Origin: Comamonas sp. Y33R10-2
GTDB lineage: Bacteria > Pseudomonadota > Gammaproteobacteria > Burkholderiales > Burkholderiaceae_C
Direction of reading: 5' to 3'
DNA length: 64,000 nucleotides
Assembly (NCBI RefSeq): GCF_019355935.1
Contig: NZ_CP079925.1
Location: 2,170,001-2,234,000 of the forward strand
Part shown: positions 179-19,138 of the stretch, one piece after another
Layout of the letters: every line of letters begins with the position of its first letter
Numbering within the stretch: the first letter of the stretch is position 1
Position numbers and translations under genes: made by a program
The notes under the pieces: generated by a model
Told to the model about the DNA's origin: nothing
Databases searched by the model: none
What the model saw: the letters and a program-made list of their open reading frames with translations, nothing else

Positions 179-190
179 ACCGCCTCCTCC

Positions 191-2550: not shown

Positions 2551-2601
2551 TTTTTTGTAGATAGTTCACAGCCTCCTATTTCCGTTCAAATAGGAGTCCA
2601 T

Positions 2602-3752: not shown

Positions 3753-3758
3753 GAAAAG

Positions 3759-3770
3759 CTGGTCGATTCA
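3759..3770. repeat. right terminal inverted repeat of the IS3 element
   Basis: CTGGTCGATTCA is the exact inverted copy of the left end. The bases after it (CTG) do not repeat those before the left end (CTC). Confidence 0.85.
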
Positions 3771-3838
3771 CTGGCGGCAGACAGCCTCAAACGGAAACTT
3801 GACTACTTGTGCTCGGCTATCCGCCGGGCCCGCCATGA

Positions 3839-4013: not shown

Positions 4014-4033
4014 TGCAAGGTATTCGATAGCCG

Positions 4034-4855
4034 TCAAGGGGCGTCGATCATCCATTCTTGAGGGAGGCCTTTCTCCAGCCGGGACAATAGGCGCCAAGCG
4101 GCCGATATTTCCGCATTGTTGGATCTCTCAATGGTGCTTCTCCATTGGTTGATTTGATCGGCAAAGAGATCTGATCGCTTCACTCTCTTGATTGTTGCGT
4201 CCAACCACCCTGAGGCTGGAAGGATAATTCGATCCAGTCGGGGCAGGCTGCAAGCGCGGCCAAGTCCATTGGGATCGAAGTCGAAAAAGGCCCATACCGG
4301 CTCGGCCCTCGTACGTATGACGGCATCCACGCGATCAGCCTTAAAGAGGTTGTCGCCAAGAAGGATGGCCACCACATTGAGGCCTTGGTAATCGAGCCAC
4401 CGGTACTTCTCCAGAGTCCTGAATGTCTCGACGTTCTCAACGAGTAGAAGCCGATCGGCGGTGACGGTCGTGGCTTGGGCAACAGTCAGGACAGAGTAGA
4501 TGCCCTGCTCCGGGCGAGGTAGTGGGTGACCGCCAAGCAAACAAGCTCCAGACGCGACCTTGATGGCCACGGAGTCATCATGCGGCGCCTTCGTCCCGGT
4601 CTTCTCGCTTGGCAGGCCGATCGCGTCTGAGCGGCTGGATCCAGCCGGCAGAGGCGTCAGCGGAAGACCGTTGGCAATCAGGAGCGAGATTGCCTCTTGG
4701 TGGCTTTTCTCGGTATAGACGAATCCCCGGCCTTTGCGCGAGCCGATGCCACAGTGAACAAGAAAGAACTCGGCAACCGCGCTATGGCCACGCTCAGCTG
4801 GTTTTTCAATGGCCAGGCGTTGCAGGAAGGTGATCTGCGTGCTGCTGAGGATCAT
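4034..4855 (-). CDS. jetD: JetD/MksG-like Toprim nuclease subunit of a Wadjet-type system
   Basis: This 273-residue protein closes the four-gene condensin operon. A Toprim fold is visible in the second half: LLLVENVETF holds the conserved Glu and FFDFDPNGLG the DxD-type acidic pair that bind metal. In Wadjet and MksBEFG systems this subunit cuts DNA, chiefly small circular plasmids, after the SMC complex has extruded it. The first 130 residues look like a helical or winged arm, shorter than the DUF3322 arm of classical JetD proteins of about 400 residues. Its ATG overlaps the TGA of jetA by 4 nt (ATGA). A topoisomerase-like factor of another kind is a weaker alternative. Confidence 0.8.
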   Translation of the reverse strand: MILSSTQITFLQRLAIEKPAERGHSAVAEFFLVHCGIGSRKGRGFVYTEKSHQEAISLLIANGLPLTPLPAGSSRSDAIGLPSEKTGTKAPHDDSVAIKVASGACLLGGHPLPRPEQGIYSVLTVAQATTVTADRLLLVENVETFRTLEKYRWLDYQGLNVVAILLGDNLFKADRVDAVIRTRAEPVWAFFDFDPNGLGRACSLPRLDRIILPASGWLDATIKRVKRSDLFADQINQWRSTIERSNNAEISAAWRLLSRLEKGLPQEWMIDAP

Positions 4856-6089
4856 TTCAGGCTTACGCGCACGTCACTAAAAAGGTCGTTGTGCACGCCG
4901 CGGATGCGCTCTATAAGGCTGAATTCGACCTTGAAGCCAAGAACACCCAGTTGCCTGGAAGCGTAGAGGAGCCACTCCTCTTCCGAAATTTCACCCAAGT
5001 CGCCCCTATGCTCCGTGTACCACCCGGCCAGCGAGAGCGCGCCGGCAGAAGTGGTCGTCAGGACAGTGGCCGCCCGCTCGATGGACAGGTCAACCGGGTC
5101 GTGCTCTTCCTCGATCTCTTCCTGCTGAGTGTAGAGAACCTCTTGAGCCGGCGCGACCTCATCGACCTCAGTCTTTTGGACCGGGGGGGCGGCATGGCTG
5201 CCACGGCATTGGTCATGCACTCAAAGACAATCGGATCGGTATCAGAGGCATCTAGGTTCCACTTGAACTTCAGCGACTCCGGCGTGAGCAGCAGAGCCAC
5301 GGCTCGCTCGTCTAGCTCGATGTCTTGGAATCCGTCTGAGGTCTTGTTTTGAGCAAGCCAGAGCGCTACGCGGCCAAGATTCTTGATCTTGGTCTCCACC
5401 TTCAGGGCCTTGCCCAGCTGTTTGCTGATAGACGCCTGACAATCGTTCAGGCGGCTTCTCCAACTCAGCATCCGATTCATTAGCCTGACGTTGATCAGAG
5501 AGCGAACGTGGTGGAAGCCAATGGCCATAGCACCCTCGGCGATCTCCTTGATCAGCTCGTCAAGTTGATTGAGTTCTGCCCGGCAGACGTTGATTTCCCG
5601 GTCGTAGAACTGATTCTGGCGAGACTTGATCCTTCGCGACTCCACGTTCCCATAGTCTGTGGAGAGTTGCGAGTTGAGAACATTCAGGTTTCTGTCCATG
5701 ACGTACACGACTTCCGAAATCGTGTCGTCCAGCGCCCACTGCATACGCTCGGCCTTCGCGACCTCACCGTCGGCCTTGAGGTCGTACATCTCCCGCCACT
5801 CCTGACGGGCTTGGCGGATATTGCCGCTCAGGCGCGTGAAAGCCTGAAAGGCGTTGTAGCTCTGAAGGTGATCGGAGATAAAGTCTCTGAGTCGCGGGTT
5901 CAGGCGGTATTCGCCCTCCTCGTAGGGCGTGAGGGCCTTGATTGCGGCCAGGGCGTCAATCGCCTTATTCCTTGGCCTGTCACCGGGAATGACAGAACCA
6001 TCCAGCCCTTCTGCAACGAGGAGCCCATGCGTGGCAAGCGTCGCAAGGATCTGCTCAACCTGCCCGCGTCGATCTGCTGGTGTGCGCAT
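4852..6089 (-). CDS. jetA: JetA/MksF-like kleisin subunit, interrupted by a one-base frameshift
   Basis: The kleisin bridges the SMC heads and carries the MukE-like subunits. From ATG 6089 the frame reads a winged-helix-like N-terminus and long helical middle (about residues 100-240) to FECMTNAVAAM, then runs into low-quality sequence and stops at 5058. The sensible continuation (VQKTEVDEVAPAQEVLY to DLFSDVRVSLK) lies in the frame ending at 4852. Both join at a G7 tract on the plus strand (5183-5189; C7 in the mRNA sense). One extra C, or a -1 ribosomal slip on C7, would give about 412 residues. The restored stop overlaps the jetD ATG exactly, which supports the longer protein. Causes could be sequencing error, mutation, phase variation or programmed slippage. 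Confidence 0.75.
5183..5189. repeat. G7 homopolymer at the kleisin frame junction
   Basis: Seven G on the plus strand (C7 in the coding sense) mark the only place where the two jetA frames can be joined with a one-base change. The tract is a candidate slip or phase-variation site. Confidence 0.7.
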
Positions 6090-6091
6090 GG

Positions 6092-6724
6092 TTAGCCTAG
6101 CGAGTCAATCATGTCGGGCTCCTGACCGCTTGGCGAATCGGGATCCTCAGGGCGCAGCGTATTCTCCTCAATGAATCCGAGAATGGAGTGCAAGTGATCG
6201 ATCTTGCCGGTCACTTGATAGACTTCGCTTTGCTGGTTGGAGATGATCAGAAGTCCCTCGCCGCGCAAGTGCTCCAGCATCTTCTTCAGGAACTCACGAT
6301 TGGTGTGCTTTTGAGATACCCCACTGATGACGCCATGCAGTCGCCGCAACTCCAGCTCAAGCGTAGACGTTTCGTTCACTGCCTGCTCCAGCTCGGCAAG
6401 CTGGACGTAGTCCCCTGGGCTGGCTGTGAAGCCCTCCTTGGCCTGGAGAATCATGAGGAGCATCTTGATTGCCGGCTCGTACACGTCGCGGAATCGTGTG
6501 AGCATCTCGCGCACTTTCTGGTTTTCCGAGACGCCCAACTGAGACGGGGCCATGAAGAATGCGCCGTCGTCGCCAATGCGGGCCAGCCGCCTGTCGATCT
6601 CTCCCAGCCATTCGTTGATGGACTGTCTCAGTGGCTCACTCTGAAGCTGGTCATATTCAACTGCGTAGGCGATGGGGCAGATGTATTCGCCGCTCAAAAG
6701 CAATGTGCGGATGCGGGAACTCAT
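6092..6724 (-). CDS. jetB: JetB/MksE-like (KITE/MukE-type) subunit
   Basis: The 210-residue protein has the size and helical, winged-helix character of MukE/MksE subunits. A likely wHTH block is NREFLKKMLEHLRGEGLL followed by short strands, and an acidic tail (RPEDPDSPSG) ends the protein. Such subunits dimerise on the kleisin and help load the SMC on DNA. The ATG overlaps the jetC TGA by 4 nt (6721-6724), and jetA begins 2 nt after its stop, as expected for fixed stoichiometry. Assignment rests mostly on context and fold-like pattern rather than on a strong motif. Confidence 0.68.
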   Translation of the reverse strand: MSSRIRTLLLSGEYICPIAYAVEYDQLQSEPLRQSINEWLGEIDRRLARIGDDGAFFMAPSQLGVSENQKVREMLTRFRDVYEPAIKMLLMILQAKEGFTASPGDYVQLAELEQAVNETSTLELELRRLHGVISGVSQKHTNREFLKKMLEHLRGEGLLIISNQQSEVYQVTGKIDHLHSILGFIEENTLRPEDPDSPSGQEPDMIDSLG

Positions 6725-9700
6725 TTGTCACCCCCTTTGTAGCGTGAGATGCTGCCTCGCTCGCCGAAGCGATAACAGCGCGCAAAGTGTCGGAACTCGG
6801 CAATCGTGAGTGCAGGAGATGCAGTCACAACGTCGATGTGGTTGTCGCGAAGCATCTGCATGAGGCTGTGGAAGTTGCCAGGGTCAAACTTTCCGATTTC
6901 ATCGGTCACCCACGGGATATAGATCTGCCCGTCCCCGCGAATCATGTTCGCCATTCCAGATAGCAGGGTGATGAAGATGATCGCGGTCAGGCCGTTGGAG
7001 GAGATTTTTGCCAGCTCGGACTCTCGCTTAAAGTGTTTAACCTCACCGTTGATCTCAGCACTGCCGCGAATGATGATCTGTTTGGCGTAGTCAACCTCGA
7101 GTGTTCCTTCGGTCGAAAGAAGGCTCATGAAGTCTCGAAGCGCGTCCACGGTGTTCTTGTTTGGCAGATCGCGAGATCCCCATGTGACGGATTCCTGCAT
7201 CTGGACCTTGGAGACCCCCTCGATGGTATCGAGCTTCTTGATGAAGTCGAGGCTATCGAAGTCTGCGGCAAAGTGAATTTGCAAATCTCTGACGCGCTTG
7301 AATGCGCTCACCTTTTCCAGACCTTCGCTTAGCCTTTTGTCAAACGAAGCCACCTCTGATTTGAAGAGCGAGATTTCCTTTTGGTACTGCATGATCCCGC
7401 CAAGAATGGTATGGGTCTCTGACTGGACGGCAGCAATGGTGTCTCTGAGTGACCGAGTATGGGCTTGGCAGAGATCAAGGGCTCGCTTGACAATGGATGA
7501 GTCACCAGATTCATCCATCTCGTGCTGAATCTGCTGCTGGATGGAGTTGGTTCTTCCGGTCAAGGCCTCGCGAATGTTTCTGGTCATCTTGGATATCTGG
7601 CCCTCCAGGGAATCGACGGCCTCCATCAGTGCGACGATCTTGGCCTTCAGGTCGCCTGGCTTCGTCTCAGAATCTATGAGAGATGATCCAGTGGCGTGGT
7701 ACAGCGAAAGGCGATCATCAAGGCCGTGGAGCGTCACGGCGTCTTGTCCAAGGTGCTCGATCACTGCGTTCAGGTACGCAGTGCTGTTCTCGTACGCTGC
7801 GTGCGTGCGCCCCATTTCTTGCCTGTGGTCATCCAGCTCTTTTTGCTTGCCCGTGTGCGTTTCAGCAGCGTTTTGGGCGGCACGGCTCAGGCGGTCCAGG
7901 CCAACAGGCCCAACCCGCTCTTTCCATGCGTTCCAGCGATCAACCGTTGACTGTTTATCTTCGTAAGCGCGGATCTTTCCTTCTAGTTTCGTCTTCGCTT
8001 CCCCAAGGCCGGAAACCAGCTCGGCATCGATGCCCTGATTTTTGAGATGCTCCATCCGTTGGTCGTTGATCGTATTGATGGCGATCTGTAGGGCTCTCTC
8101 TCTTTCAGCAATTCGATCCGAAACCAGCCTTTCGGCGGTTTCGCGGCGGGTTGTGCAGGCGCGCCATTGGCCGTCAAAGTCTGACTCGATCGCCTTTCTG
8201 CCAATGCTGGAGTTGCGCTTGGTGGAGTTCTTCGCTGAACTGGCATCCTCGAAAGCTTTCTCAGCGATTTCAAGTTGCGCTGCGTTCTTAGCCTTTTGAT
8301 CTGCCACCTCTTTTTCGAGACGCCCGTTTGCGAGTTCAACCGCTTCGCCAAGCTGAGAGCCAGTTGTCTTGTTGACGTTGACCTTCGATTCGATCAGGCT
8401 TTTATCTGTATTGGCGCGCTCAACTGCGGCGCTTGAAATTTTCAGTTTGTTGCGAGCCTCTTGAACCTTCGCGTTGGCAGACTTGACTTCGTCATCGCAC
8501 CGGCGGACGGCGGCGCGCAGGGTCTCATCATCCGTCCAGATAGGCGAGTCAATGTTGTCCGTGACAAGACTCCACCCGTACGCCTCATGGCCAACGCCAA
8601 CATGCATTGGAGAAAGATCATTTCGATGCAGAAGGGCCGGATCAATTACGCGTGCAAGATCAGACTTCCATTCTTGGCCGCGGTCGGCTCGCAGGGCTGC
8701 AAGTAAGGATCCATCGTCTGGAGCCAGATTCTTTTGGGCTTCATGTAGCAATTGAATCGCAACTTCGCTTGCTGCAACTGCCGAGCGAACTGCGACATCA
8801 GTCTTGTTGAACTCAGCCAATGCCTCACTCGCAAATGATGCTGAACTGGTTAGATCCTGTTGATCTTTGAGTTCCTTCTGGCGATGTGCACTCAGCATTT
8901 CGTTGGCCTGCTTGAGGGCGGCCTTCGCCTTTTCGCTGGGCTGTTCGTGTTCGGCAAGCAGCTTGGCCGTGGTGAAGGAGTCACGAGCCGTGCCTTCTGC
9001 CTCCTCCAGTTGAAATTCAATAGCAGCCGCACTTTCGTCGTGGTCTTCCAGCGCTTTATTCTTGTCGCCCTGGATGGCCGCAGTCTCACTGTTGAAGGTA
9101 GCCAGAATCTGCGGAAACGACCCGTTGAGGGTGACTATTTCTGTTTGGCAATCGGATCTGGCCTGACCGATCTGCGCATCGTATTGGGCATCAATGCCCG
9201 TCAACTCTCCACTTGCGGTATCTATGCGGCTTTTGAGTGTGGCCAACTCGGAGCGCAAGCTGGGCAGGCTGTCGACGTTCTCAATCACCGTTTCAATTGG
9301 GAGATTGATGAACGATTTGTGCGCCGCATTCTCGGCCTCGAAGAGTGCTTCCGCCGCTCGGCGATCGTTGAGTGCCGTGTTTGCGGCCGACTCCTTCTCG
9401 CCTAGCGTCTTGTTTTCTCCGGCGACAGCGTTGTCGCGCGCTGTCTTCAGTGCGCCCAGCTCGGTATTGGCCTTCTTGGTGCATTTCTCGTTTTCTGCAG
9501 TGAGGTGCTGAACGTCAGCACGGTAAGAGCGCAATTGAGTTTCGTGCTGCCCGTAGGTGTTGGCCTGAACACGAAGCTTTTCGACCTCGCCATCTTGCTT
9601 GATGGCGTTCTTGCAGGCGTCCACGTTCTCAAGCCACAAGGAGATCTGCTTCTTACCCTGCGGCAGCTTGCGAACCTGTCCTTCTGCTTTCCGGCCGATG

Positions 9701-10368
9701 GACTCCTCAACGATGGAAAGGGCCACGTTGATGAAGTCGCGGAAGTCGATCCTCTCCTTGACCATCGCCGCGACCAGGCGATCCAGATGCTGGAGGCGCT
9801 TTTTCCCGTAAGAGTATTCCGTACTCATTGCCCGGAGTGCTACTCCCCGCTTGGTATTGGTAGGGGCGCCAAGAATGACCGAGCAGTATTCCGATGTGGA
9901 CAGGATGCGCTCCGGCGATACGCCGTGCTTGCGCGCCTGCTCCATGAATCCAGCGTCATCCACGAAGACGCGCTTTCCATCTAAAGTCTCGCTAAGGAAG
10001 AGCTCTTCCCGGAATGAGCCCTTGAAGAATCGATAGTCAGCGGCATCGCCGTTGGGCTCGCGCCGGATCGCGACGCATCGCGTGCTGTCCTCACCTTCGC
10101 CGCGTTGGTACTCGAAGACGATGGCGCTCTGGGGTGTCGGAAGGACAAACTGGAGCTGCGGCAGGTTGCCGCTGCCTGCTTCAACAATATGGCTGGGCTT
10201 GCTGCCAAGGAACAGGGCGAAGATCTGCTGGGTGGTGGTCTTGCCAACGGAGTTCTCGCCAGTGACGGCCGCCCCACCCTGGGGGTTTAGTTCATTGATC
10301 GCTCCAGACGGAATCTTGCCGCTGGTGCGCGTGTTGATCAGTAGGACTCTATTGAGACGAGATGGCAC
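6721..10368 (-). CDS. jetC: JetC/MksB-like SMC (MukB-type) ATPase of a Wadjet-type system
   Basis: A 1215-residue SMC-type protein starting at GTG 10368. The Walker A is GENSVGKTTT at about residues 37-46, in a context typical of MukB/JetC (N-terminal LLINTRTSGKIPSGAINELN). Residues of roughly 250-1000 are Lys/Glu/Ala-rich coiled coil with a probable hinge near the middle. The C-terminal head has a signature-like KISSNGLTAIIFITLLSG and a Walker B VTDEIGKFDPGNF. The family extrudes DNA loops using ATP and, in Wadjet, detects small circular DNA. It is the first gene of a minus-strand operon jetC-B-A-D, with 4-nt overlap to jetB. The gene order differs from the A-B-C-D order I know for classical Wadjet loci. 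Confidence 0.87.
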   Translation of the reverse strand: MPSRLNRVLLINTRTSGKIPSGAINELNPQGGAAVTGENSVGKTTTQQIFALFLGSKPSHIVEAGSGNLPQLQFVLPTPQSAIVFEYQRGEGEDSTRCVAIRREPNGDAADYRFFKGSFREELFLSETLDGKRVFVDDAGFMEQARKHGVSPERILSTSEYCSVILGAPTNTKRGVALRAMSTEYSYGKKRLQHLDRLVAAMVKERIDFRDFINVALSIVEESIGRKAEGQVRKLPQGKKQISLWLENVDACKNAIKQDGEVEKLRVQANTYGQHETQLRSYRADVQHLTAENEKCTKKANTELGALKTARDNAVAGENKTLGEKESAANTALNDRRAAEALFEAENAAHKSFINLPIETVIENVDSLPSLRSELATLKSRIDTASGELTGIDAQYDAQIGQARSDCQTEIVTLNGSFPQILATFNSETAAIQGDKNKALEDHDESAAAIEFQLEEAEGTARDSFTTAKLLAEHEQPSEKAKAALKQANEMLSAHRQKELKDQQDLTSSASFASEALAEFNKTDVAVRSAVAASEVAIQLLHEAQKNLAPDDGSLLAALRADRGQEWKSDLARVIDPALLHRNDLSPMHVGVGHEAYGWSLVTDNIDSPIWTDDETLRAAVRRCDDEVKSANAKVQEARNKLKISSAAVERANTDKSLIESKVNVNKTTGSQLGEAVELANGRLEKEVADQKAKNAAQLEIAEKAFEDASSAKNSTKRNSSIGRKAIESDFDGQWRACTTRRETAERLVSDRIAERERALQIAINTINDQRMEHLKNQGIDAELVSGLGEAKTKLEGKIRAYEDKQSTVDRWNAWKERVGPVGLDRLSRAAQNAAETHTGKQKELDDHRQEMGRTHAAYENSTAYLNAVIEHLGQDAVTLHGLDDRLSLYHATGSSLIDSETKPGDLKAKIVALMEAVDSLEGQISKMTRNIREALTGRTNSIQQQIQHEMDESGDSSIVKRALDLCQAHTRSLRDTIAAVQSETHTILGGIMQYQKEISLFKSEVASFDKRLSEGLEKVSAFKRVRDLQIHFAADFDSLDFIKKLDTIEGVSKVQMQESVTWGSRDLPNKNTVDALRDFMSLLSTEGTLEVDYAKQIIIRGSAEINGEVKHFKRESELAKISSNGLTAIIFITLLSGMANMIRGDGQIYIPWVTDEIGKFDPGNFHSLMQMLRDNHIDVVTASPALTIAEFRHFARCYRFGERGSISRYKGGDK

Positions 10369-10826
10369 GAAGTTGCTTTCGACTGGTTAATTATCTGACT
10401 ACGCTACTTTCATCATTAGACGTATTTCATTCGGTTGAATTCGTTTCCCTCCCTAGTCATCGCTTGAATGCAAATGATTCAATTCGTTCGCTGTTGCCAT
10501 TTTCTCGCCAGCCGACAGTAACCCGTTCTCACAACGAGTAGGCCCCATTGGGCCACTCTTGGTAGGTTCGCTGCGAAGCCGCCGGCCTAGCTACAGCAGA
10601 ATGATGCTTGGAACCGTCGTTCATCTGTTGCAGGATCTGGAGCACCGACGGCCCAGAAATTTGGGGCCGTTCAGCAGTCGTTCGCGGCAGCCCAAAATCG
10701 CCCTATTGCTGTCACTCGAACTTTGACTAAAGATAACTGGTGTGCAGCGGTTGCGGACAGTCATACTTCCAAGTCGATGTTCCGGTTTTGCCAGGAGGCA
10801 GTCACTGACCGCACAACGGATTGGAG
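10369..10826. other. 458-nt spacer between the two minus-strand defence operons
   Basis: No convincing gene is present; the open frame at 10621-10860 on the minus strand has no recognisable domain and overlaps the DUF6527 gene. The right part should end the ubiquitin-like operon and the left part should hold the jetC promoter. An inverted repeat (ACGGCCC 10648-10654, GGGCCGT 10664-10670) could form a hairpin but lacks a T run. The sequence has the look of decayed intergenic DNA. Confidence 0.4.
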
Positions 10827-11297
10827 TCAATGGCCAAGCCAATTCTTTAACCGAGACCACAAACTTTGGGAGCGCGCCCCCCTTTCTTGATAGGCTACTT
10901 CGGGTTCAGATGCGAGTATGGTCGGCTGTTGAACCGTCGAGCGCATTTCGTCGCTGCCACCGTAATGCGCGGCTTTTGCTTTCTTGTCTCGGCGGCGCTC
11001 CGCTTCAACTTGCGCGTTAGACCAGGGGCCAACCTCCACCACGCGTCCCTGCCGGATCACATAATGCGACCGGCACTTCTGGTTCCAGTTGCCCACAGAA
11101 GGGTGAAGCGAGACGGATTCGCCGTTGAAGGTCATATGCCAGTCGGTTGGAGTGAACGGCGTCACCACGCGCTCACCACAACCACAGCAGCATGAGTGCA
11201 CCGCTGTTGCGTACTCCATTGAGATGTACAGCACTCCAGGCTCCAGTTCGCGTGGCACGTTCCGGACGAACCGGTGCTCCAGGGTGTGGTGCCGCAT
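10827..11297 (-). CDS. DUF6527-family protein of the ubiquitin-like operon
   Basis: I chose ATG 11297 because it shares one base with the E1 gene's stop (TGATG); this gives 156 residues. The core shows a Cys-rich block HSCCCGCGERVVTPF, then DWHMTFNG, SLHPSVGNWNQKC and SHYVIRQG, the pattern of DUF6527. The Cys and His residues probably bind zinc. Proteins of this family are found beside ThiF and multi-ubiquitin genes, so a part in conjugation or deconjugation (an E2- or ligase-like accessory) is plausible but not established here. The C-terminal 50 residues are low in order and end in WSRLKNWLGH, possibly an amphipathic helix. Confidence 0.75.
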   Translation of the reverse strand: MRHHTLEHRFVRNVPRELEPGVLYISMEYATAVHSCCCGCGERVVTPFTPTDWHMTFNGESVSLHPSVGNWNQKCRSHYVIRQGRVVEVGPWSNAQVEAERRRDKKAKAAHYGGSDEMRSTVQQPTILASEPEVAYQERGARSQSLWSRLKNWLGH

Positions 11298-12478
11298 CAC
11301 GATTGGTCTCCGTTCAGCAACATGCCGCCGTCCGTGGTGTAAGTGCAGTGGTGCTCCTGCTCCAGGTCCCGGTAGAAGCCGCGCAGCTTCTTCCACTTCA
11401 CCACTGCTAAGCACGCGTTCAGAGCATTCAGGTCGGCCACCTGGATGTTGGACGCGTACAGGTCCTGGTCACCGCCTCCAGCGAAGGAGACGCGGCCCTG
11501 GTGAACGTGTTCGCGTTTCTCAGGCGTGCTGGTGGTGACGCGCAGGATACCTCCAAGGGTGCCGTTCGTGAGTTCCAGACCCATCCCGACGTCTATGAAG
11601 GGAACACCTAGCGCCTCGAGCTTGGTCACGACGGCGTGCTTCTCCTCGCCGGCGTCCATGCTGAGGAACGCGAAGCTGATGCCGTCCAGCAAGCCAAGCG
11701 TGTCTGCCTTCATTTTCACCGGGTGCGCCTCGATGAAGCGGTGCATGCGTCCATAGATGCCCTTCAGGTAATGCACCTTCATCGGGGCATCCCGCAGGTC
11801 CTCGAGGGTCGGCGCACCAGGTGCACGGAAGGCGTTGTGCGACAGGAAGACGTCGGGGTCGAACAGGCGAATCTGCTTCACAGGCGTTTTCGCCACAAAG
11901 TCGAGGATGTAGCCGCCCGTACCGCCAAGACCGATGATGGCCACGACCTCCTTCTCAAGCTTAGCGGCCAGCGCGCCAATCCCGACGCGGCTAGAGGCCG
12001 TGTCGAGGTAGTTGAAGGCGCTGGCCTCATCTTCCTCGTCGCTACCGCGAAACACGCGCGGGCTAAGGCCCGGCTTCAGCACCGCAGCTGGTCCGGACAC
12101 GATGGTTGCGTAAGTCGACATCTTGGCGTAGTAGTCCGGGTAGCCCTGCTCGCTTGGCTTGCTAGAGAACGTGAACCGAGCTTTGAGCCCGTGGCCGAGG
12201 TCAGTGTTCGGTTCGGCATGCGAGATGCCCTGCAGAGGCACCCCGTCGGCATTGCATGGGAAGTCTCCATCCCAGTTCATGACATGCGTTTCGGGCTTGC
12301 GGGTGCGGTCGCCGGCCAGGTCAAGAGCCGACGATAGCGTGCCGAAGCGCACCTGGCGCTGCGCGTCGACGTAGGGCACCTCCAGCATCACCAGGAGGCT
12401 CCCCTGGATGCGCATGAAGTAACCCTCCGAACGAAGGCGGGCCAGGTCGGGATTAAGACTGAACAGTGCGCGTGACAT
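11297..12478 (-). CDS. E1-like ThiF adenylyltransferase with N-terminal DUF6791-type domain
   Basis: Starting at ATG 12478 (AAGGA about 10 nt upstream) the protein has 393 residues. Residues 1-150 match the DUF6791 pattern (LNPDLARLRSEGY, VPYVDAQRQVRFG, KPSEQGYPDYY), found in front of ThiF domains in bacterial ubiquitin-like loci. The ThiF part has the nucleotide-binding loop IIGLGGTGGYILDF, then LFDPDVFLSHNAFR with the Arg contacting ATP. E1 enzymes adenylate the C-terminus of a ubiquitin-like protein. A catalytic Cys is not obvious; candidates are in LNACLAVVKW and EHHCTYTT. The start lies 26 nt inside the end of the multi-ubiquitin gene, so the two are coupled. Confidence 0.85.
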   Translation of the reverse strand: MSRALFSLNPDLARLRSEGYFMRIQGSLLVMLEVPYVDAQRQVRFGTLSSALDLAGDRTRKPETHVMNWDGDFPCNADGVPLQGISHAEPNTDLGHGLKARFTFSSKPSEQGYPDYYAKMSTYATIVSGPAAVLKPGLSPRVFRGSDEEDEASAFNYLDTASSRVGIGALAAKLEKEVVAIIGLGGTGGYILDFVAKTPVKQIRLFDPDVFLSHNAFRAPGAPTLEDLRDAPMKVHYLKGIYGRMHRFIEAHPVKMKADTLGLLDGISFAFLSMDAGEEKHAVVTKLEALGVPFIDVGMGLELTNGTLGGILRVTTSTPEKREHVHQGRVSFAGGGDQDLYASNIQVADLNALNACLAVVKWKKLRGFYRDLEQEHHCTYTTDGGMLLNGDQS

Positions 12479-13184
12479 TGAAGATGGTTCCTTTCTTCTT
12501 AACTTCGACGGAGCCGCCCTCGCCGAACTCGCCGGCGTGGGGGAGCGAGGCCGCATTGCGGTAGGTCATCGAGAACTTCACATTGGTCTCGCCGGCCGCG
12601 TTCGGGTAGTACAGCTTGACCACCTGCTCGAAGGTGACGTGCTTATCCGGCACAGTCTTCTCTTCAGAGTTGACCAAGATGACGTACGCGGTAATAAAAC
12701 GCTCGATACCAGGCGCGTCGAGGTTGATGCGCTCGTCCGGGTCGATCAGGCGGTCTTCACCGCCGCGAACCTCCAGGAACACGGCCTCATCCGGCGACGT
12801 GTCGGCGAGGTCGTACAGGACGCTGCCCAGCATGTCGGCGCGGCCCCAGGCCAGTTGGCGGTCGTTCAGCGAGAACTTGAAGTCGCGGTCGGACTTGAAC
12901 GCGATGAAGCGTTCAGCGCCCTTGCCGCGCAGGTCGAAGGTCTCGTCGAGGCGGACGTCCTCGAAGTCACCCGTGTCCAGGTAAGCGAACAGGATGTAGT
13001 CAGCGCGGTGGTCCAGGCCCGCGTTGGACAAGATTTGCCGGCCGGTGGGTACCGGGTCCGGCACGTCGATGTGGCGGAAGGTCAGGCCTTCCAAGCCAAA
13101 GCGGATACGGTAGGCGGTAGCCTCCCGCAGAGGACGGTCCTCACGGATCGCATCGCCAACGTCGTCAAAATCAGGATGTTTCAT
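12453..13184 (-). CDS. multi-ubiquitin domain protein
   Basis: The 243-residue protein can be split into three beta-grasp-like units: about 24-95 (YRIRFGLEGLTF to ERFIAF), 98-165 (FKFSLNDRQLAWGRA to ERFITAY) and 167-243 (VILVNSEEKTVPDKHVTFEQ to the end). The recurring ERFI(A/T) strand and spacing support the repeat. The C-terminal GTIFNVTRTVQS resembles the end of the Multi_ubiq family. No diglycine tail is present, so conjugation would need another C-terminal chemistry or trimming. It lies directly before the E1-like gene and is its expected substrate. Confidence 0.82.
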   Translation of the reverse strand: MKHPDFDDVGDAIREDRPLREATAYRIRFGLEGLTFRHIDVPDPVPTGRQILSNAGLDHRADYILFAYLDTGDFEDVRLDETFDLRGKGAERFIAFKSDRDFKFSLNDRQLAWGRADMLGSVLYDLADTSPDEAVFLEVRGGEDRLIDPDERINLDAPGIERFITAYVILVNSEEKTVPDKHVTFEQVVKLYYPNAAGETNVKFSMTYRNAASLPHAGEFGEGGSVEVKKKGTIFNVTRTVQS

Positions 13185-13267
13185 AGGGTCCTTATGGTTG
13201 CTGTAGCGAGGTTTTCCCGCCTACAACCCTCCAATCGGACCCACTAGACGTCGCCGGTAAACTTTCT

Positions 13268-16200
13268 TCAGAAGTTTTTTGAGAGCGTGCCTGGCGGTAC
13301 CGCACCGCATACGAAGAAGGCCGGGCAGTTGGGGCAGATTGCGTCCGATGCCTCAGTCTTGAACTGGCCGGCCCGGATGCCACGGAAGATGTCACCCAGT
13401 TTGTCCTGGCGGTTGCTCAGCTCCTTGGGGGAGAGGGTCAACGGCTTGGATTCAGCGTCTGCCAAGTAGACGAGCTCAATGCTGGCGTCGGGGAATGCGG
13501 CCCTGCCGGCTAGCACGAAGGCTGCGGCCCCAACGTCCTTGCCGTCACCGCTGGACGCGTGGCCTGTCTTCACCCGACGCAAGGTCCTGACGCCGTTTCG
13601 CACCAGAACTTCGTCTGGGGTGACCTCTACCTCGTGGTCGCCGAACGAGACACGAAGCGCGGTCGGTGCTTCCACAACCGCTCCCGCTCTGGATTCCAGG
13701 AAGTATCGGAGCATCGTCGTCGCCATCGCCCGGTAGTCCTCGACGTAGCCGTGCTCATGCAGACCGTGGGTGACAAATGCTTTTGAGAGCAGCTCATCGA
13801 GCTTTCCTGTCGGTACGCCCCCTTGCGCCACGACAGTGCGGTAGACCTCGCGGATCGCCTCGTGCATCTGCATGAACGAGCTCGTCCGGCGGCGACCGCC
13901 CACATGCAGTAGGTGTGTGTACAGAAACCGTCTGGCGCAAGACTCGTAGAGCCCGACTGCATCGGAACTGAAGCGCGGTGTACCGGAGAAGACGACAGGA
14001 ATTATCGCCTCATCGGGAGCAGGAGGCATGACGGTGGTCGGCGTCACCGGCCGCGAATTGACGGGCCCAATCCGCTCAAGGAACGGTGATAGCGCTCTGG
14101 CCCGTCCCGACGCCGTTGCGGTGGCCCCGTAGAACGCCAGGCGATTCCTTGCACGGGACATGGCGACGAAGAACAGACACTCCTGCTCTTCGTTATGGGC
14201 TGCCCGTGCAACCTCCTCGGCACTTCCTTGTCCGCCCGCGACCAGGCCAACTGGTGGAGGGCATTTCGACGTCCGAAGCGACCCCGGGATCGAGTCCTTG
14301 TTGACGCCGGCAATGTGGACTGCGGGGAACTCAAGCCCCTTCGAGCCGTGGATCGTCATCAGGCGGACCGCGTCGATACCCTGGGCTGCCGCTGGCAGTT
14401 GCCTCAGGTCCCTGTCGTCTCTGAGGCGCAGCAGCCTTCGCACACGGTCGGACAGCCGCTGAATCGGGAGTCCCTGGGCATTCGGTTGCACCCGAACGAA
14501 GTTCATGAACTGCCAGATCGCGATGCCTTGGGCTTGCTCCGGTACGCTGCTCGAGGCTGCAATGCGTGCTGCCTGCCTGGTTCGATCCAACAGAAGGGTC
14601 GCCAGCACGATCCAAGGCTGCGACGTTGCGTCGAAGCCGGCAAGGGCCGCATGGAGGGCTGATAGCGCCTCTTGCCCCGATGGCGTTACCTCGGTTGGGG
14701 CACCAAGCCGCCATGCGCCTGGCTCCGCGTTGGTTCCCCGGAGATGCTCAAAGACGCGGACTGCGTCTTCCAGGCCCATCGTGAACTCCGGCCAGCAAGC
14801 GGTCCGGATCAGCCCCATCGCGCGCCGGTCGACAAGGAGCGTCAGCATCGCGACAAGGTCCTTCACTTCCGGCCGCTCAAAAAGGCTACCCAAGAAAAGC
14901 ACCGGAATGCCTGCGCGCTCGAGTTCCCTTCCGACATCAGACAGTCGGTCGTTCCCGCGGCACAGGACGGCCTGGTCGCGATACCGGTATCCCTCTTCGC
15001 GGAGCTCTTCAATGCCATCAGCGATAGCCGCTGTCAGCAAGGGTGTGCTAACCACCGTGATGACCTCGGGTAGCTTGCCACCAGGGCCTCGATCCGCTTC
15101 GAGCGCCTGCTCGCCATCGGCTGCAGACATACCCGCCGCAAACGTCGAAAAGGCATGGACGACTTCCGAGGTGGAGCGGTAGTTGACCTCCAGGCTGTCG
15201 CGTACCGCGCCAGGGAAATCCTCACGTCCGAAGCGGGACATGTTGAACGATGAGGCACCGCGGAACCGGTAGATGGATTGCTTGGCGTCTCCTACCACCC
15301 ATAGGTTGACGCCCGTTGGCTTCAGCGCCGCCAGGAGCCGCACGCTGCTGCGGTTCACGTCCTGGTACTCGTCGACCAGGATGTGGTCATAGTCGCTTTG
15401 AAGCTGAGCTCGAACTGCGGCATCGCTTTCCAGCAGCAGCACCGGCCGCATGACCAAGTCACCGAAATCCACGCACTGGGAGACTGTCTTCAGTTCCTCG
15501 TAGCGCGCATAGACCTTGGCGACCTCTGCTGCCTTCTCGGCGGCTTCCACCGCGCCCGGGTCGGTCGCCGCCGCACGCATTGCTGTGGCCAGCACCTGAT
15601 AGCCAGCGGCATCAACAACTTCATCCTTTGCGCGTGACACCGCGGTCAAGATGTCAGCCGCCGTCTGCGATGGATCGTAGAGGTTGCGGTAATGGGTCAG
15701 GCCGAGTCGCGGGAACTCATTCTCAAGAAGCTCAACAGCCTCGGTTCGATCCATCAGGCGGGGATCGGCCGGGAGGCTGCACCGGTCGTTGAATCGCCGC
15801 AGGATGTCCAGGCCGAAGCTATGGAAGGTTCCGATGCAGAGTGCCGTAGCATCCTTGGGACGCTTCAAGGCGATCCGCTCGGTCATTTCTCCTGCGGCCT
15901 TGTTCGAGAAGGTCAGGAGAAGGATGCGCCGTGGGTCAACACCTTCGTCCAGCAAGCTTTCGACACGTGCAACGAGCGTGCGGGTCTTCCCAGTTCCCGG
16001 CCCGGCCTGAAGCAGGAATGCAGCGCCACGATGCCGAGCCGCGTCACGTTGCTTTTCGTTGAGGGGAATTTCAACGGGGTCGGCTTCAGCGACGACCGGA
16101 ATGGGGGGCAGGAGCAGCGCATCGAGCATCTGCTGAGCTACGACTTCGAAGGGAGCACCTAGACGTCCTGCAATGTCAGAACAGGTTTGGCCCTGAACAA

Positions 16201-16654
16201 GATGCAAGTCAACGATGCTAGACCTCGGTAGCAGAAGCTCCCTAGCGAAAAGGTCCATTTGAACTTCTCGACGCTGTCGGCGGCTGTAGTCGACGACCCG
16301 ATCCATCCCGACAGGAGCTGCTTCCGAGGTGCGGGCTGGATCAATGTGCGCAGATGGCTCTGGAGCTTCTTCACCATCACCCAGTTCGGCGTGCCCAAGC
16401 TCATGCGCAACCAAGAATGCTTGGTCGAAGGGTGATCCTTCGTTCTCATGGAGAATGAGGGGAAGGTCCGGATCAAAGGAGGCTCGGCCACCATCGAGCA
16501 TCGCGGCGCCTGGAGCGCAGGTCTCAACGGTGATCCCGAGGTCGTTAGCGATGCCAACAGCGAAGTCGTACGGGGACCAAGGGTTGCGCCCACGCTGGAC
16601 AGCCTCATCGTGCAGTCGCCGAGCATGCTGCCGTGCAAGCTCTATCGGGTCCAT
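13268..16654 (-). CDS. ImmA/IrrE metallopeptidase - UvrD-like helicase - Fe-S PD-(D/E)XK nuclease fusion
   Basis: A 1128-residue three-part protein. Residues about 1-180 are an ImmA/IrrE-type zinc peptidase with HELGH at 84-88 and a further ligand near Glu130 (REVQMDLFARELLLP). Residues about 195-880 are an SF1A helicase: GPGTGKT at 218-224, LTFSNKAAGEM, GTFHSFG, DEYQDVNRSS, GDAKQSIYRFRGA, MTIHGSKGLEFP, and FFVAMSRARNRL. The last 250 residues carry YESCARRFLYTHLL and CPNCPAFFVCG, the four-Cys Fe-S frame of AddB-type nucleases, with a PD-(D/E)XK-like strand around RVKTGH. It would cut proteins, translocate on DNA and cleave it. The gene starts 2 nt after the small upstream gene; the multi-ubiquitin gene follows after 83 nt. 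Confidence 0.87.
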   Translation of the reverse strand: MDPIELARQHARRLHDEAVQRGRNPWSPYDFAVGIANDLGITVETCAPGAAMLDGGRASFDPDLPLILHENEGSPFDQAFLVAHELGHAELGDGEEAPEPSAHIDPARTSEAAPVGMDRVVDYSRRQRREVQMDLFARELLLPRSSIVDLHLVQGQTCSDIAGRLGAPFEVVAQQMLDALLLPPIPVVAEADPVEIPLNEKQRDAARHRGAAFLLQAGPGTGKTRTLVARVESLLDEGVDPRRILLLTFSNKAAGEMTERIALKRPKDATALCIGTFHSFGLDILRRFNDRCSLPADPRLMDRTEAVELLENEFPRLGLTHYRNLYDPSQTAADILTAVSRAKDEVVDAAGYQVLATAMRAAATDPGAVEAAEKAAEVAKVYARYEELKTVSQCVDFGDLVMRPVLLLESDAAVRAQLQSDYDHILVDEYQDVNRSSVRLLAALKPTGVNLWVVGDAKQSIYRFRGASSFNMSRFGREDFPGAVRDSLEVNYRSTSEVVHAFSTFAAGMSAADGEQALEADRGPGGKLPEVITVVSTPLLTAAIADGIEELREEGYRYRDQAVLCRGNDRLSDVGRELERAGIPVLFLGSLFERPEVKDLVAMLTLLVDRRAMGLIRTACWPEFTMGLEDAVRVFEHLRGTNAEPGAWRLGAPTEVTPSGQEALSALHAALAGFDATSQPWIVLATLLLDRTRQAARIAASSSVPEQAQGIAIWQFMNFVRVQPNAQGLPIQRLSDRVRRLLRLRDDRDLRQLPAAAQGIDAVRLMTIHGSKGLEFPAVHIAGVNKDSIPGSLRTSKCPPPVGLVAGGQGSAEEVARAAHNEEQECLFFVAMSRARNRLAFYGATATASGRARALSPFLERIGPVNSRPVTPTTVMPPAPDEAIIPVVFSGTPRFSSDAVGLYESCARRFLYTHLLHVGGRRRTSSFMQMHEAIREVYRTVVAQGGVPTGKLDELLSKAFVTHGLHEHGYVEDYRAMATTMLRYFLESRAGAVVEAPTALRVSFGDHEVEVTPDEVLVRNGVRTLRRVKTGHASSGDGKDVGAAAFVLAGRAAFPDASIELVYLADAESKPLTLSPKELSNRQDKLGDIFRGIRAGQFKTEASDAICPNCPAFFVCGAVPPGTLSKNF

Positions 16655-16656
16655 GA

Positions 16657-17223
16657 CTACTCTCCGTCGAGGAGGTTCGAAATGCTCTGTTCGTCGACGC
16701 CAGCGTCTTGCAAAACTCTCTCGAACGGCACTTTCTCAGGGGCTATTGGCTTGACGGCTGACTTCCTTGCACGAGCCAGGGGAGCCTCAGGAGGAAGAGC
16801 GAGGTACGAGAGCAGTGTCTCGTTTGATGTCTGCAGCGCTTCAGCCATTTTCGTCAGAACGCGCCGGGGCAAGGTTGCGACCTCTATCCGACGCTCTCGG
16901 AAGGCAAGGCCGACCTGCATAGGTAAGGACAGCACTTTGATTGCATCGGCAAACGCCTTTGCAGGGGCAACTTGCAGAGACTTAAGCGTTGCCGTGTTCT
17001 CCCGAAGACGCACCATGCCTGCCGCGACGAGGTCGAATTCGGCAGCACTAGGAGGAACATCGTCGTCAAACTCGCGAGTCAGCTCCGCGGAGAGGTCTAT
17101 TAGGGCTGAGGAATGCTCTGGGTACTGAGCGAGATATCGCTGCAGCACACCGTGTTCTTGCTCAAAGTCCATAGCGAACGCTCTCAGGACATCGTCTGCG
17201 GTGATTTGTGGCTGCATACCCAT
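16657..17223 (-). CDS. small regulator-like protein between sigma-like and ImmA/IrrE genes
   Basis: The 188-residue protein has no family I can name with certainty. The first 50 residues (DVLRAFAMDFEQEHGVLQRYLAQYPEHSSALIDL) are helical and resemble segments seen in anti-sigma-like or partner proteins. The middle (LPMQVGLAFRERRIEVATLP to LLSYLALPP) resembles a divergent XRE-type helix bundle of the sort paired with ImmA/IrrE proteases. Its ATG shares a base with the sigma-like gene's TAA (TAATG), and the protease-helicase gene begins 2 nt after its stop. A role as repressor or anti-sigma cleaved by the ImmA/IrrE domain is a reasonable inference. Confidence 0.6.
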   Translation of the reverse strand: MGMQPQITADDVLRAFAMDFEQEHGVLQRYLAQYPEHSSALIDLSAELTREFDDDVPPSAAEFDLVAAGMVRLRENTATLKSLQVAPAKAFADAIKVLSLPMQVGLAFRERRIEVATLPRRVLTKMAEALQTSNETLLSYLALPPEAPLARARKSAVKPIAPEKVPFERVLQDAGVDEQSISNLLDGE

Positions 17224-17999
17224 TACTTCTTCCCCTTGCGCTCAAGGCGCAGCTTCAATGACGCAAAGGCCTTGTCGCGATGCGTGCGGACGGTCTTCTC
17301 CGATTTCCCCAGGACTTTGCTGATGGACTTGACGGAGGGGTCATTGGACTCTATGGGAATGTCTTGGCGCCACATCACGACGATCCTCCTTTGGAACTCA
17401 GGTAGGCTGTCAATCGCCTCATCAAGGAAGAGCCGGTAATCTTTTTTGTCAAGTTCTTCGGCGTCGAATGGGTTGTAGTCTCCGATGGCTGATTCGACCT
17501 GGGCGGAGATCTCTCCATCTTCGGTCTCAATTTCAGTAGTCCGGTTCTCCTGCTTCCAGTGGCGGTCGTTCGCGTCCCGACGATCCGCCGCGACCGCGCT
17601 GTTGAAGTTGACCTCGTAGTAGTCGAGGCGGTCGTCGTAGTGGCTCCGGTCGCTAAGTAGCAGGTCAACGAAGTGGTCGCCGACGGCCTCGCGGATGTTC
17701 ATCCTAGTCATCGAGACCGTTTTGCCGTCGGCGTTAGTGACTGAAGGAACTCGACGGGCCACCCGGAGTAGAAGCTTCTCGGTCAATTTCTCGCGGTGAG
17801 CGCCGGAGGCCGCGTTGCGCACAAAGTACAGCAAGGCTTCGGGGGAAACGTATCCGGGATCGCCGACCTGCCATAGGTCAGCACGGCGCTCCAGTTCTGC
17901 GGCGCTGATTCCTGCAAGGGCTTGAATCTCGCTCTCGACCTTTTCTCGCCTGAAGTAAGGGGTGCCATCGAGCTTCCGCTTACGAAGAGGACGTGCCAC
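17223..17999 (-). CDS. sigma-70-like protein (region 4 HTH)
   Basis: A 258-residue protein beginning at GTG 17999 with GAGGAG about 8 nt upstream. The C-terminal 65 residues (LDEAIDSLPEFQRRIVVMW, then SISKVLGKSEKTVRTHRDKAF) match sigma region 4, which contacts the -35 element. Region 2 is not clear: the middle part (DDRLDYYEVNFNSAVAADRR) could be a reduced or altered core-binding part. It is the first gene of the six-gene operon, so it may direct RNA polymerase to this operon or sense stress. A stand-alone HTH regulator is the alternative. Confidence 0.72.
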   Translation of the reverse strand: MARPLRKRKLDGTPYFRREKVESEIQALAGISAAELERRADLWQVGDPGYVSPEALLYFVRNAASGAHREKLTEKLLLRVARRVPSVTNADGKTVSMTRMNIREAVGDHFVDLLLSDRSHYDDRLDYYEVNFNSAVAADRRDANDRHWKQENRTTEIETEDGEISAQVESAIGDYNPFDAEELDKKDYRLFLDEAIDSLPEFQRRIVVMWRQDIPIESNDPSVKSISKVLGKSEKTVRTHRDKAFASLKLRLERKGKK

Positions 18000-18001
18000 A
18001 A

Positions 18002-18331
18002 CTACTCCTCAGCTTGGTATACGAAGGGGCCCTGTTTGGGCTATCGAGCCAAACTGTAACAGAATAGTCGAAATGTACTTCACACCACGCGGCACGCCAA
18101 CGTGATCAGCCGCAATTAAGCGACCCGGGCGTCACTGTTTGGCGAGCCGCAGACTTGTGACCATCCATTCGATCGACGATCGAATAGCAGCTTTCGACTA
18201 ATTCTCAGGCATTCGTGCCAATACCCTAACCGTCAGCAACCAGCCTGAAGCAGCTCCACAAGTGAGGGTGTGCAGAATTTTCTGTAAACAGGCTAAACCG
18301 TAAGGCTCAGATCGGAACTTCTACATATAAG
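18002..18331. other. 330-nt upstream region of the six-gene operon
   Basis: No gene is visible. The part next to 17999 carries the ribosome binding site of the sigma-like gene and should hold its promoter; I could not settle a -35/-10 pair. The sequence contains a GATCGACGATCG-like palindromic stretch near 18171-18183 that could bind a dimeric regulator, but this is weak. Confidence 0.35.
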
Positions 18332-18832
18332 TTATCGCAACTTGCAATACTCTTGCAGCTTTTCCGAAAGCTTGGCAACTGTCTCTTGATCTGCTATTCC
18401 ATTGCGCCCACGGGTCAGCACAAGATGCTTGGATGCAGCACCTATCCATCCTTCGTCATCATCATCGAGCACCACCCAACGAGTGACCGATCGCCGTGTT
18501 GCATCAGCTAAGACTTGTGCGCCACGAGTCATTGCATCGAACTCAAATTTGTTCATCGCACTGTGAAAAGTGGAGCCAATCACTCGTGACCGTAATGCTT
18601 CTGGAAGATAGGCCTTAGCTTGAGAGAACCCCAGAATGCGAACCCATGATGTCGACAAAACGATTCGTACGTCAGGATACGGCACCAGTACGTCAACGAG
18701 GATTTTTGCGTGCTCGAACAAGGTATGGCCAGTGTGATCGACACTGAAATACATTCCGCCCCGAGGGTGCCTGTAGACGGGCTCTGGATGCAAGACCCCG
18801 TCATAGTCAAGATAAAGAATCGTGTGGGACAT
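18332..18832 (-). CDS. HAD-family phosphatase-like protein
   Basis: The 166-residue protein has the HAD motifs in order: I as LDYDGVLHP (the nucleophile Asp in DYD), II as VLSTSW, and the last as VLDDDDEGW. The form matches the HAD domain group noted in RNA-repair multidomain proteins and in stand-alone genes of mobile islands. It probably removes phosphate from a nucleic-acid end or a small molecule; the substrate is unknown. It is separate from the six-gene operon (gap about 330 nt) but on the same strand, at the right edge of the accessory region next to tRNA-Pro. Confidence 0.78.
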   Translation of the reverse strand: MSHTILYLDYDGVLHPEPVYRHPRGGMYFSVDHTGHTLFEHAKILVDVLVPYPDVRIVLSTSWVRILGFSQAKAYLPEALRSRVIGSTFHSAMNKFEFDAMTRGAQVLADATRRSVTRWVVLDDDDEGWIGAASKHLVLTRGRNGIADQETVAKLSEKLQEYCKLR

Positions 18833-19018
18833 ACATTCTTGTGACGAAGCAATCAGTCACATGGCAACAAAAGGCACTGGAATTGATAAGTCCATGGCAG
18901 TCGCAGGCCAGCCTTTTGCATGGCAATGCCTGAACCGCAAACGCCCACATTCAGGCACCGTTTTTCTTTACCGTTACCCCCTGAGTTACCCCCTTTTGAG
19001 GCAATTTCGCTACAATAG

Positions 19019-19053
19019 AAAAAGGACTCCTAACTTTATAGCTAGGAGTCCTT
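19019..19053 (-). terminator. intrinsic terminator after tRNA-Pro
   Basis: On the minus strand AAGGACTCCTAGC pairs with GTTAGGAGTCC around a short AT loop, followed by TTTTT. It lies 9 nt past the tRNA 3' end. Confidence 0.85.
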
Positions 19054-19061
19054 ATCTAGAT

Positions 19062-19138
19062 TGGTCGGAATGGCGGGATTCGAACTCGCGACCCCTTGCA
19101 CCCCATGCAAGTGCGCTACCAGGCTGCGCTACATTCCG
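19062..19138 (-). tRNA. tRNA-Pro (anticodon GGG)
   Basis: A 77-nt cloverleaf with encoded CCA (19064-19062), acceptor stem CGGAATG/CATTCCG, T-arm GTTCGAATC, and anticodon stem CTTGC/GCAAG around loop ATGGGGT, giving GGG. It stands at the right end of the accessory island. tRNA 3' ends are common integrase targets, but no integrase gene or second copy of the 3' end is seen in the window. Confidence 0.96.

Follow-up and report, generated by a model that had tools for sequence, protein, structure and literature searches.

Bacterial ubiquitination-like (Bub) operons were reportedly described by Gong in 2025 and by Ye in 2026. In the part of PMC13373217 considered here, such operons are often accompanied by DNA-damage-responsive regulators (CapW or CapH+CapP in 219 of 544, CapK+CapS in 59 of 544), and its authors state that phage protection has not been shown. 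The metalloprotease IrrE/PprI cleaves DdrO, a reaction stimulated by single-stranded DNA, and CapP and CapH act alike (sections of PMC10904395). In this study, a mobile six-gene cassette of Comamonas sp. Y33R10-2 was analysed, which lies in a stretch of 64,000 nucleotides (positions 2170001-2234000 of the 3.84-Mb genome; hereafter the window). It joins a trio of genes, encoding a sigma-like protein, a protein of 188 amino acids (aa) and a protease-helicase fusion, to a ubiquitin-like protein (Ubl) module composed of a multi-ubiquitin, an E1-like enzyme and a DUF6527 protein. The cassette is probably an inducible Ubl conjugation module with its own transcription switch. Support at the sequence level comes from (i) the near-constant trio, (ii) the swapping of the module behind it, (iii) two DNA sites that co-occur with the sigma gene and show both DNA-level selection and covariation, and (iv) the kept protease and helicase motifs and lost nuclease motif of the fusion.

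The genes and DNA sites of the cassette are (window positions):

17223..17999, minus strand: sigma-like gene (258 aa; region-4 type helix-turn-helix at residues 184-257)
16657..17223, minus strand: 188-aa gene, probable sigma-binding/anti-sigma partner (XRE-like helix-turn-helix, residues 77-145)
13268..16654, minus strand: fusion of ImmA/IrrE metalloprotease, superfamily 1 (SF1, UvrD) helicase and PDDEXK fold (1128 aa; four conserved Cys; (D/E)xK lost)
12453..13184, minus strand: multi-ubiquitin gene (three Ubl domains; 243 aa; C-terminus ...RTVQS, no C-terminal Gly)
11297..12478, minus strand: DUF6791-ThiF E1-like enzyme gene (longest open reading frame from 12556)
10827..11297, minus strand: DUF6527 gene (conserved CxCGCG ... 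C-x2-H residues; longest open reading frame from 11414)
17412..17439, minus strand: DNA site P1, TTACCGGCTCTTCCTTGATGAGGCGATT, within the sigma-like gene, ~190 nt 5' of the 188-aa gene (26.8 bits)
13233..13260, minus strand: DNA site P2, TTACCGGCGACGTCTAGTGGGTCCGATT, within the 83-nt gap, 48 nt 5' of the multi-ubiquitin start (27.0 bits)

The original prediction had described six minus-strand genes with defined overlaps and gaps, all of which were borne out by open reading frames (ORFs), Pfam and NCBIfam. The sigma-like and 188-aa genes overlap by 1 nt, 2 nt separate the latter from the helicase gene and 83 nt lie between the helicase and multi-ubiquitin genes, while the multi-ubiquitin/E1 and E1/DUF6527 overlaps are 26 nt and 1 nt, respectively (the DUF6527 gene can start at 11297). 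The Met at 12478 (residue 27 of the ORF), where the NCBIfam match begins, was taken as the E1 start.

The linkage of the two halves was assessed in an unbiased sample of 398 Pseudomonadota genomes. The helicase was present in six of them (E 1e-100), and the 188-aa profile (E 0.001) matched in 11, six of the matches being strong (1e-28 or better) and five short and partial (~21-22 bits). The six strong genomes are the six helicase genomes, and in each of them (6/6) the same contig carries a multi-ubiquitin ORF at a distance of about 4 kb (for G256 its Pfam match is below the cut-off and the family profile gives 2e-23). That the whole set forms one unit, as had been proposed, agrees with this co-occurrence of the helicase, 188-aa and multi-ubiquitin genes in the same 6/398 genomes, and the refuting condition set for it, that homologues of the halves hardly ever occur together, does not hold. 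The converse linkage is weaker, as Multi_ubiq was found in 15 of the 398 genomes (13 above the cut-off), nine of which lack the trio.

Relatives were collected from 15 chosen plasmid loci (L002-L016) and the best 80 of at least 587 relatives in GTDB species genomes (L017-L096). Ten loci with the helicase core and without the two upstream genes (L087-L096) were dropped, which left 85. They span the Pseudomonadota, Cyanobacteria, Myxococcota, Planctomycetes, Verrucomicrobia, Chloroflexi, Acidobacteria and a Manganitrophus genome. The 188-aa gene lies 5' of the helicase gene in 82/82 loci with room for it, and the sigma-like gene is present in 78 of these 82 (an automated count gave 79, the match in L052 lying elsewhere in the locus). 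In the four others (L023, L052, L057 and L064) an ORF of 187-227 aa occupies its place; three of these ORFs were scanned and gave no Pfam family above its cut-off.

The module behind the helicase gene is far more variable: multi-ubiquitin, E1 and DUF6527 in 43 of the 85 loci, a Bil-type module in 20, multi-ubiquitin, JAB and E1 in three, incomplete, divergent or interrupted Ubl genes in nine, a contig end in six and no Ubl gene found in four. The Bil-type group is a single E1 sequence cluster of 20 members, whose identity was taken from PADLOC; 14 members were scored and all 14 E1s were BilD (485-577 bits), with BilA scored in L063, L072 and L082, and BilB and BilC in L063. With its sigma-like factor and the matching DNA sites, the trio looks like the control half of the cassette rather than an effector. 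A defence role of the cassette is plausible by analogy with Bil (bacterial ISG15-like), a known kind of antiviral tagging system, because in 20/85 relatives the trio is followed by a module of this type. In locus L079 (10957-12527) the trio and both sites (22.4 and 19.2 bits) are present with no Ubl gene within reach; the trio is followed by ORFs of 110 aa and 239 aa, the second of which matches SduA and CARF weakly (<=23 bits), and at this locus the switch may control something else than a Ubl module. In L052, PADLOC models gave no match to the next ORFs (132 and 452 aa).

Among 72,556 plasmid records, 154 matched the multi-ubiquitin, 95 the helicase (E 1e-40), 77 the sigma-like and 70 the 188-aa protein. 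The same gene order was found with unrelated flanks on plasmids of Agrobacterium, Acinetobacter, Cereibacter, Mesorhizobium, Klebsiella and Leptolyngbya, one Acinetobacter copy (L003) having a broken helicase frame. As this order recurs on plasmids with unrelated flanks and in one Escherichia coli record, the gene set is more than chance. The E. coli record (L156; strain CP61_Sichuan, 1331094-1350341) was the sole helicase match among 5,426 E. coli genomes (blastn), and contains all six genes and both DNA sites, with insertion sequence (IS) elements on either side, near fimH. No relative of the 188-aa protein was found in phage records, and none of the multi-ubiquitin protein in viral contigs, where a single query sequence covered close relatives only. 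Two rhizobial plasmids carry a PD-(D/E)XK nuclease and a second UvrD helicase directly 3' of the cassette (L002 11486-17532 and L006 11528-17577) and AbiE-like genes upstream of it.

Inspection of 25 gaps by eye revealed a two-block motif, TT[A/T]CCGG-N16-CGATT, between the helicase and Ubl genes and before differing modules. A second copy of the motif occurs within the sigma gene or a short way 5' of it. The strict pattern occurs in 49/86 gaps, including that of the window. A matrix was built from 48 gap sites and used with leave-one-out scoring on both strands. Among the 76 loci having both a sigma gene and gap sequence, the gap site was one of the top two matches in 64, and in 54 both top matches were cassette sites, the partner lying within the sigma gene ~219 nt before its stop in 45 loci and upstream of the gene in nine. 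At 12 bits, 48 of the 78 sigma-containing loci have the in-gene site only, 10 the upstream site only (8/10 being Bil-type), three both and 17 neither, against a background outside these places of 50 matches at 12 bits and three at 20 bits in 2.68 million strand-bases. In the 64-kb window, P2 and P1 are the best two matches, and the next one reaches 17.6 bits. The CGATT end of the gap site lies a median of 51 nt from the next ORF (66 loci; the distance is approximate, as longest-ORF starts were used).

A matrix of 40 Pseudomonadota sites, applied to 12 loci of other phyla (some of which had been inspected by eye beforehand), ranked the gap site first or second in 11 and found a sigma-linked partner site in nine. 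Both sites were the top two matches in five of six loci outside training (L147, L148, L150, L151 and L156, the gaps of L147 and L148 having been seen by eye before scoring), and no site was found in the sixth, L149. The second, divergent multi-ubiquitin module of L011 has its own correctly oriented site, beginning 79 nt before the start. No site was detected in the four loci that lack the sigma gene (best 13.1 bits), nine of nine multi-ubiquitin loci without the sigma and 188-aa genes scored <=14.2 bits (L146 being only 3.4 kb long), and four DUF7665 loci of ~3.4 kb each scored <=11.6 bits. Seven very divergent loci miss the matrix; in L071, L074, L085 and L086 a variant is common to the sigma-upstream region and the gap. 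In a test for shared 34-mers between these two regions, 13/75 loci stood out at <=2 of 100 controls, and in L003 and L063 the shared stretches differ from the motif. Counts of the exact pattern are no proof by themselves, because the own genome contains four matches versus nine for the reversed pattern, and the two exact matches located elsewhere in it were treated as chance. Consensus scans gave no sigma-70 promoters (1.9 expected) and two terminators (6.1 expected). The motif, which is new in this analysis, resembles an extracytoplasmic function (ECF) sigma promoter.

The in-gene site encodes (x)-Y/F-R-...-A-I. From 81 aligned rows, 52 with Y/F, R as CGG/CGA, and I were chosen. The codon preceding Y/F ends in T in 50/52 of them, across 13 amino acids, against an expectation of 25.6% derived from the remainder of these genes, and the Ile codon is ATT in 44/52 (34% expected); with identical codon strings counted once, the values are 46/48 and 41/48. 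Without the choice of the Arg codon, the 56 Y/F-R rows have CGG in 48 and CGA in six, and the preceding T in 54. Moreover, the Tyr/Phe residue tracks the A/T base of the gap site (YA 34, FT 16, YT 1, FA 0; Fisher 2e-12), also with a looser choice of rows (YA 36, FT 17, YT 3, FA 0, plus seven rows with another residue). By these alignments, selection acts on the in-gene copy at the DNA level, and this copy and the gap copy covary. Shared ancestry inflates the figures for both, but leaves unexplained that a residue follows an intergenic base. Within 17372-17439 (minus strand), the in-gene site is situated 5' of in-frame GTG208/ATG209 codons of the sigma-like gene, and, speculatively, P1 transcripts could additionally yield a sigma fragment consisting of region 4 only.

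The sigma-like protein scores 22.8 bits with Sigma70_r4, just below the cut-off of 24.1 (Pfam), and structure comparison found the region-4 helix-turn-helix fold in its predicted model. In a test for region 2, joint superposition on sigmaE gave a root-mean-square deviation of 15.9, and TIGR02937 scored 28.8 bits against a cut-off of 42.9; no ECF family exceeded its cut-off. The 188-aa protein has no Pfam match and its predicted model shows a weak likeness to XRE/DdrO helix-turn-helix proteins. As Foldseek gave no match at E <= 0.001 for either model, the fold statements on both are those of the follow-up structure comparison.

The third member of the trio matches Peptidase_M78 (50.9 bits, cut-off 22), UvrD-helicase (213 bits) and PDDEXK_1 (38.5 bits, cut-off 22) in Pfam. 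The predicted ImmA/IrrE-SF1-PD-(D/E)XK fusion thus holds for the three folds, but the catalytic (D/E)xK motif is lost. In an alignment of 76 helicases (the window's included; L073 is poorly aligned near its end), the H, E and final H of HExxH are each kept in 75/76, Walker A in 76/76, DEYQD in 75-76/76 per position and four cysteines (906, 1107, 1110 and 1116) in 75/76. At the acidic position of (D/E)xK, D or E occurs in 0/76 and Arg in 52, and at the Lys position there are 48 Arg and 10 Lys. Because the HExxH and helicase motifs are kept and (D/E)xK is degenerate, the protease and the helicase motor look active and the nuclease does not, and DNA cleavage by the fusion, which had been part of the original prediction, finds no support. 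By analogy with AddB-type nucleases, the four cysteines may form an iron-sulphur (Fe-S)-like domain. Broken helicase frames were noted in L003 (5503-8884), L015 (8001-11419), L065 (7501-10321) and L086 (7480-10792); these copies may be inactive or mis-sequenced. Gabija was considered and rejected, as GajB models match the helicase core only and no GajA is among the matches listed for ten window proteins (for the helicase, 25 of 53 families).

In the Ubl module of the window, the multi-ubiquitin protein matches Multi_ubiq in three stretches (179.9 bits), the E1 matches DUF6791 (177.9 bits) and ThiF (25.3, cut-off 28.1), and the DUF6527 protein scores 85.4 bits (all Pfam). None of the PADLOC models BilA-D matched these three proteins or the trio. 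Ubl C-termini vary with the type of module (window 12453-12500; L011, L041, L045; L063). Among 50 multi-ubiquitins, the ending is -QS in 24 and -KS in two (the kind seen in the window, without Gly), -GG in three, which are of the JAB type, and a single Gly in five. The remaining 16 end otherwise, many of them with an extension, which we take to be an E2/RWD-like domain. Bil-type Ubls end in Gly. hhalign detected no relationship of the Bil-type Ubl or of DUF7665 to the multi-ubiquitin profile.

The mechanism that we infer is as follows. The sigma-like protein would recognise two matching promoters and bring RNA polymerase to them, namely P2 ahead of the Ubl module and P1, which is located within the sigma gene or (chiefly in loci of the Bil type) 5' of it. 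In the resting state the 188-aa protein, acting as an anti-sigma factor, would hold the sigma factor inactive. The helicase fusion would act as the sensor: damaged or invading DNA would be engaged by the SF1 motor together with the Fe-S-like domain, and this would activate the N-terminal ImmA/IrrE metalloprotease, which in turn would cleave the 188-aa protein and release the sigma factor. Once released, the latter would raise the helicase and the 188-aa protein from P1, as a feedback, and turn on the Ubl module from P2. The E1 of the induced module would then tag proteins, and DUF6527 would probably process or remove the tags, possibly in phage defence. A broader proposal, to which we give slightly less than an even chance, is that sigma factor, anti-sigma factor and helicase-borne protease constitute a transferable, stand-alone DNA-to-transcription relay that has repeatedly been coupled to different Ubl modules (multi-ubiquitin/E1/DUF6527, multi-ubiquitin/JAB/E1 and Bil), the placement of a sigma promoter in the sigma coding sequence making both halves answer one signal.

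The same sites could be read as repressor operators, at which the 188-aa XRE-like or the sigma-like helix-turn-helix protein represses both transcription units until the IrrE protease removes the repressor. Partners of IrrE-type proteases such as DdrO and CapH are indeed described as repressors or transcription factors (sections of PMC10904395), and the model of the 188-aa protein has its weak XRE/DdrO likeness. However, the site is asymmetric and co-oriented with the downstream gene, in the gaps as well as at the divergent module of L011, its two blocks 16 nt apart, the second ~51 nt (median) from the next ORF, suit -35 and -10 elements and not a palindromic operator, and the sigma-like protein has a region-4 fold. 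In addition, the site is missing where the sigma gene is missing though the 188-aa gene stays (L023, L052, L057 and L064), and we regard the operator explanation as unlikely. That unrelated genes came to lie side by side in a defence island by chance, as might be suggested by the location of the cassette on a 34.6-kb island next to a further defence-like cluster, has next to no probability left: it was already refuted by the 6/6 linkage in the 398 genomes, the same gene order across phyla and the common promoter-like sites.

Two other explanations accept the functional unity of the cassette and assign the fusion a different part. It might be a nuclease effector and cut the DNA of invaders, with protein tagging left to the Ubl module, the two forming a joint immune effector; the kept PDDEXK_1 fold with its four cysteines in 75/76 helicases and the strict helicase-to-Ubl gene linkage in the 398-genome sample would suit this. 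The absence of the (D/E)xK acid from all 76 helicases and the replacement of its Lys mostly by Arg (48 Arg, 10 Lys) speak against it, and module swapping with common promoter-like sites better fits a controller, which makes the effector explanation rather improbable. Alternatively, the fusion could be mainly a substrate or recruiter of the Ubl system that directs tagging to DNA-bound proteins, the sigma sites merely co-expressing the two halves. The helicase and the Ubl module do stand under the same control sites, and the helicase was never found without a Ubl gene in the 398-genome sample. Yet one helicase type occurs with several Ubl/E1 families (multi-ubiquitin and Bil), so that the contact would need to be re-made each time, and 9/15 Multi_ubiq genomes do without the helicase; the recruiter explanation is accordingly given a similarly small chance.

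If the inducible switch is real, sigma-factor release would join CapW, CapH+CapP and CapK+CapS as a mode of control. The cassette would offer a testable input to Ubl immune pathways, namely an apparently dedicated sigma/promoter pair together with a protease on a DNA motor, and this switch would be common to the multi-ubiquitin module and Bil-type modules. The predictions that follow are inducers, cleavage of a protein and two transcription starts. The in-gene site would also be a clear case of a regulatory site in a protein-coding gene kept by DNA-level selection.

The cassette is located at the tRNA-Pro end of a genomic island (genome positions 2154455-2189087; window 1-19087 and beyond). 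The attachment end is formed by:

19062..19138, minus strand: tRNA-Pro(ggg), attachment end of the cassette-bearing 34.6-kb island

The last 26 nt of the tRNA-Pro gene are exactly repeated 34.6 kb away, at 2154455-2154480, where no tRNA gene was found, and a third exact copy is found at the distant position 1064937. The far end of the island contains a recombinase-like ORF of 467 aa and an AlpA-like ORF (names read from their translations). Beside the cassette (window 4034-10368, minus strand) lies a cluster encoding a DUF3584 (MukB-like) protein of 1215 aa, a weakly MksE-like protein of 210 aa, a 343-aa protein and a DUF7281 protein with a weak JetD match, which looks like the Wadjet/MksBEF type. 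A HAD_SAK_2 domain protein (99 bits) is encoded between the cassette and tRNA-Pro (window 18332-18832, minus strand), and an IS3-type transposase with an rve domain at 2871-3752 (plus strand).

Open-access literature provided, among the matches listed, no recognisable account of the six-gene make-up, the trio or the sites. The combination of polyUbl, E1 and metal-binding protein has been described as the type 6e polyUbl operon (Iyer et al. 2006, PMC1779556). In the sections of that paper examined, this operon has one to three Ubl domains (compare the three Multi_ubiq stretches), an E1 whose N-terminal domain can be a non-JAB 'domain X' (the window's E1 is DUF6791 plus ThiF), a small metal-binding protein and a sporadic, mobile distribution. 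The metal signature given there is C-x(3)-C-x(35-38)-H-x(2)-C, whereas DUF6527 has CxCGCG and C-x2-H, with the last two ligands in the other order. The words 'helicase' and 'nuclease' are absent from its main text, and the trio and promoter-like sites do not appear in the sections examined. Bil is shared through the 20/85 helicase loci that carry it behind the trio, although the window's own module is not Bil, as the lack of BilA-D matches indicates.

With respect to control, ECF sigma/anti-sigma pairs have in common with the cassette a region 4 fold, a two-block site with a 16-nt spacer before the own operon and a small partner encoded adjacently; they differ in that no ECF family exceeds its cut-off here, the partner is weakly XRE-like and one of the sites is embedded in the sigma gene. 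Bub operons likewise often combine ubiquitination-like genes with a regulator, but the Bub regulators described in the consulted part of PMC13373217 are not a sigma-like factor with a protease-helicase. By analogy, the cassette may also share with IrrE/PprI-DdrO and CapP-CapH the pairing of an ImmA/IrrE-type metalloprotease with a DNA-binding regulator (PMC10904395, in part). In the cassette, by contrast, the protease forms one polypeptide with an SF1 helicase and a PDDEXK-fold domain that bears cysteines, a sigma-like protein is the regulator, and the 188-aa protein is present as a constant third component. Seen beside these systems, the trio would fit as a further controller of the DNA-damage type, in which the helicase carries the protease and the sigma-like factor is the output.

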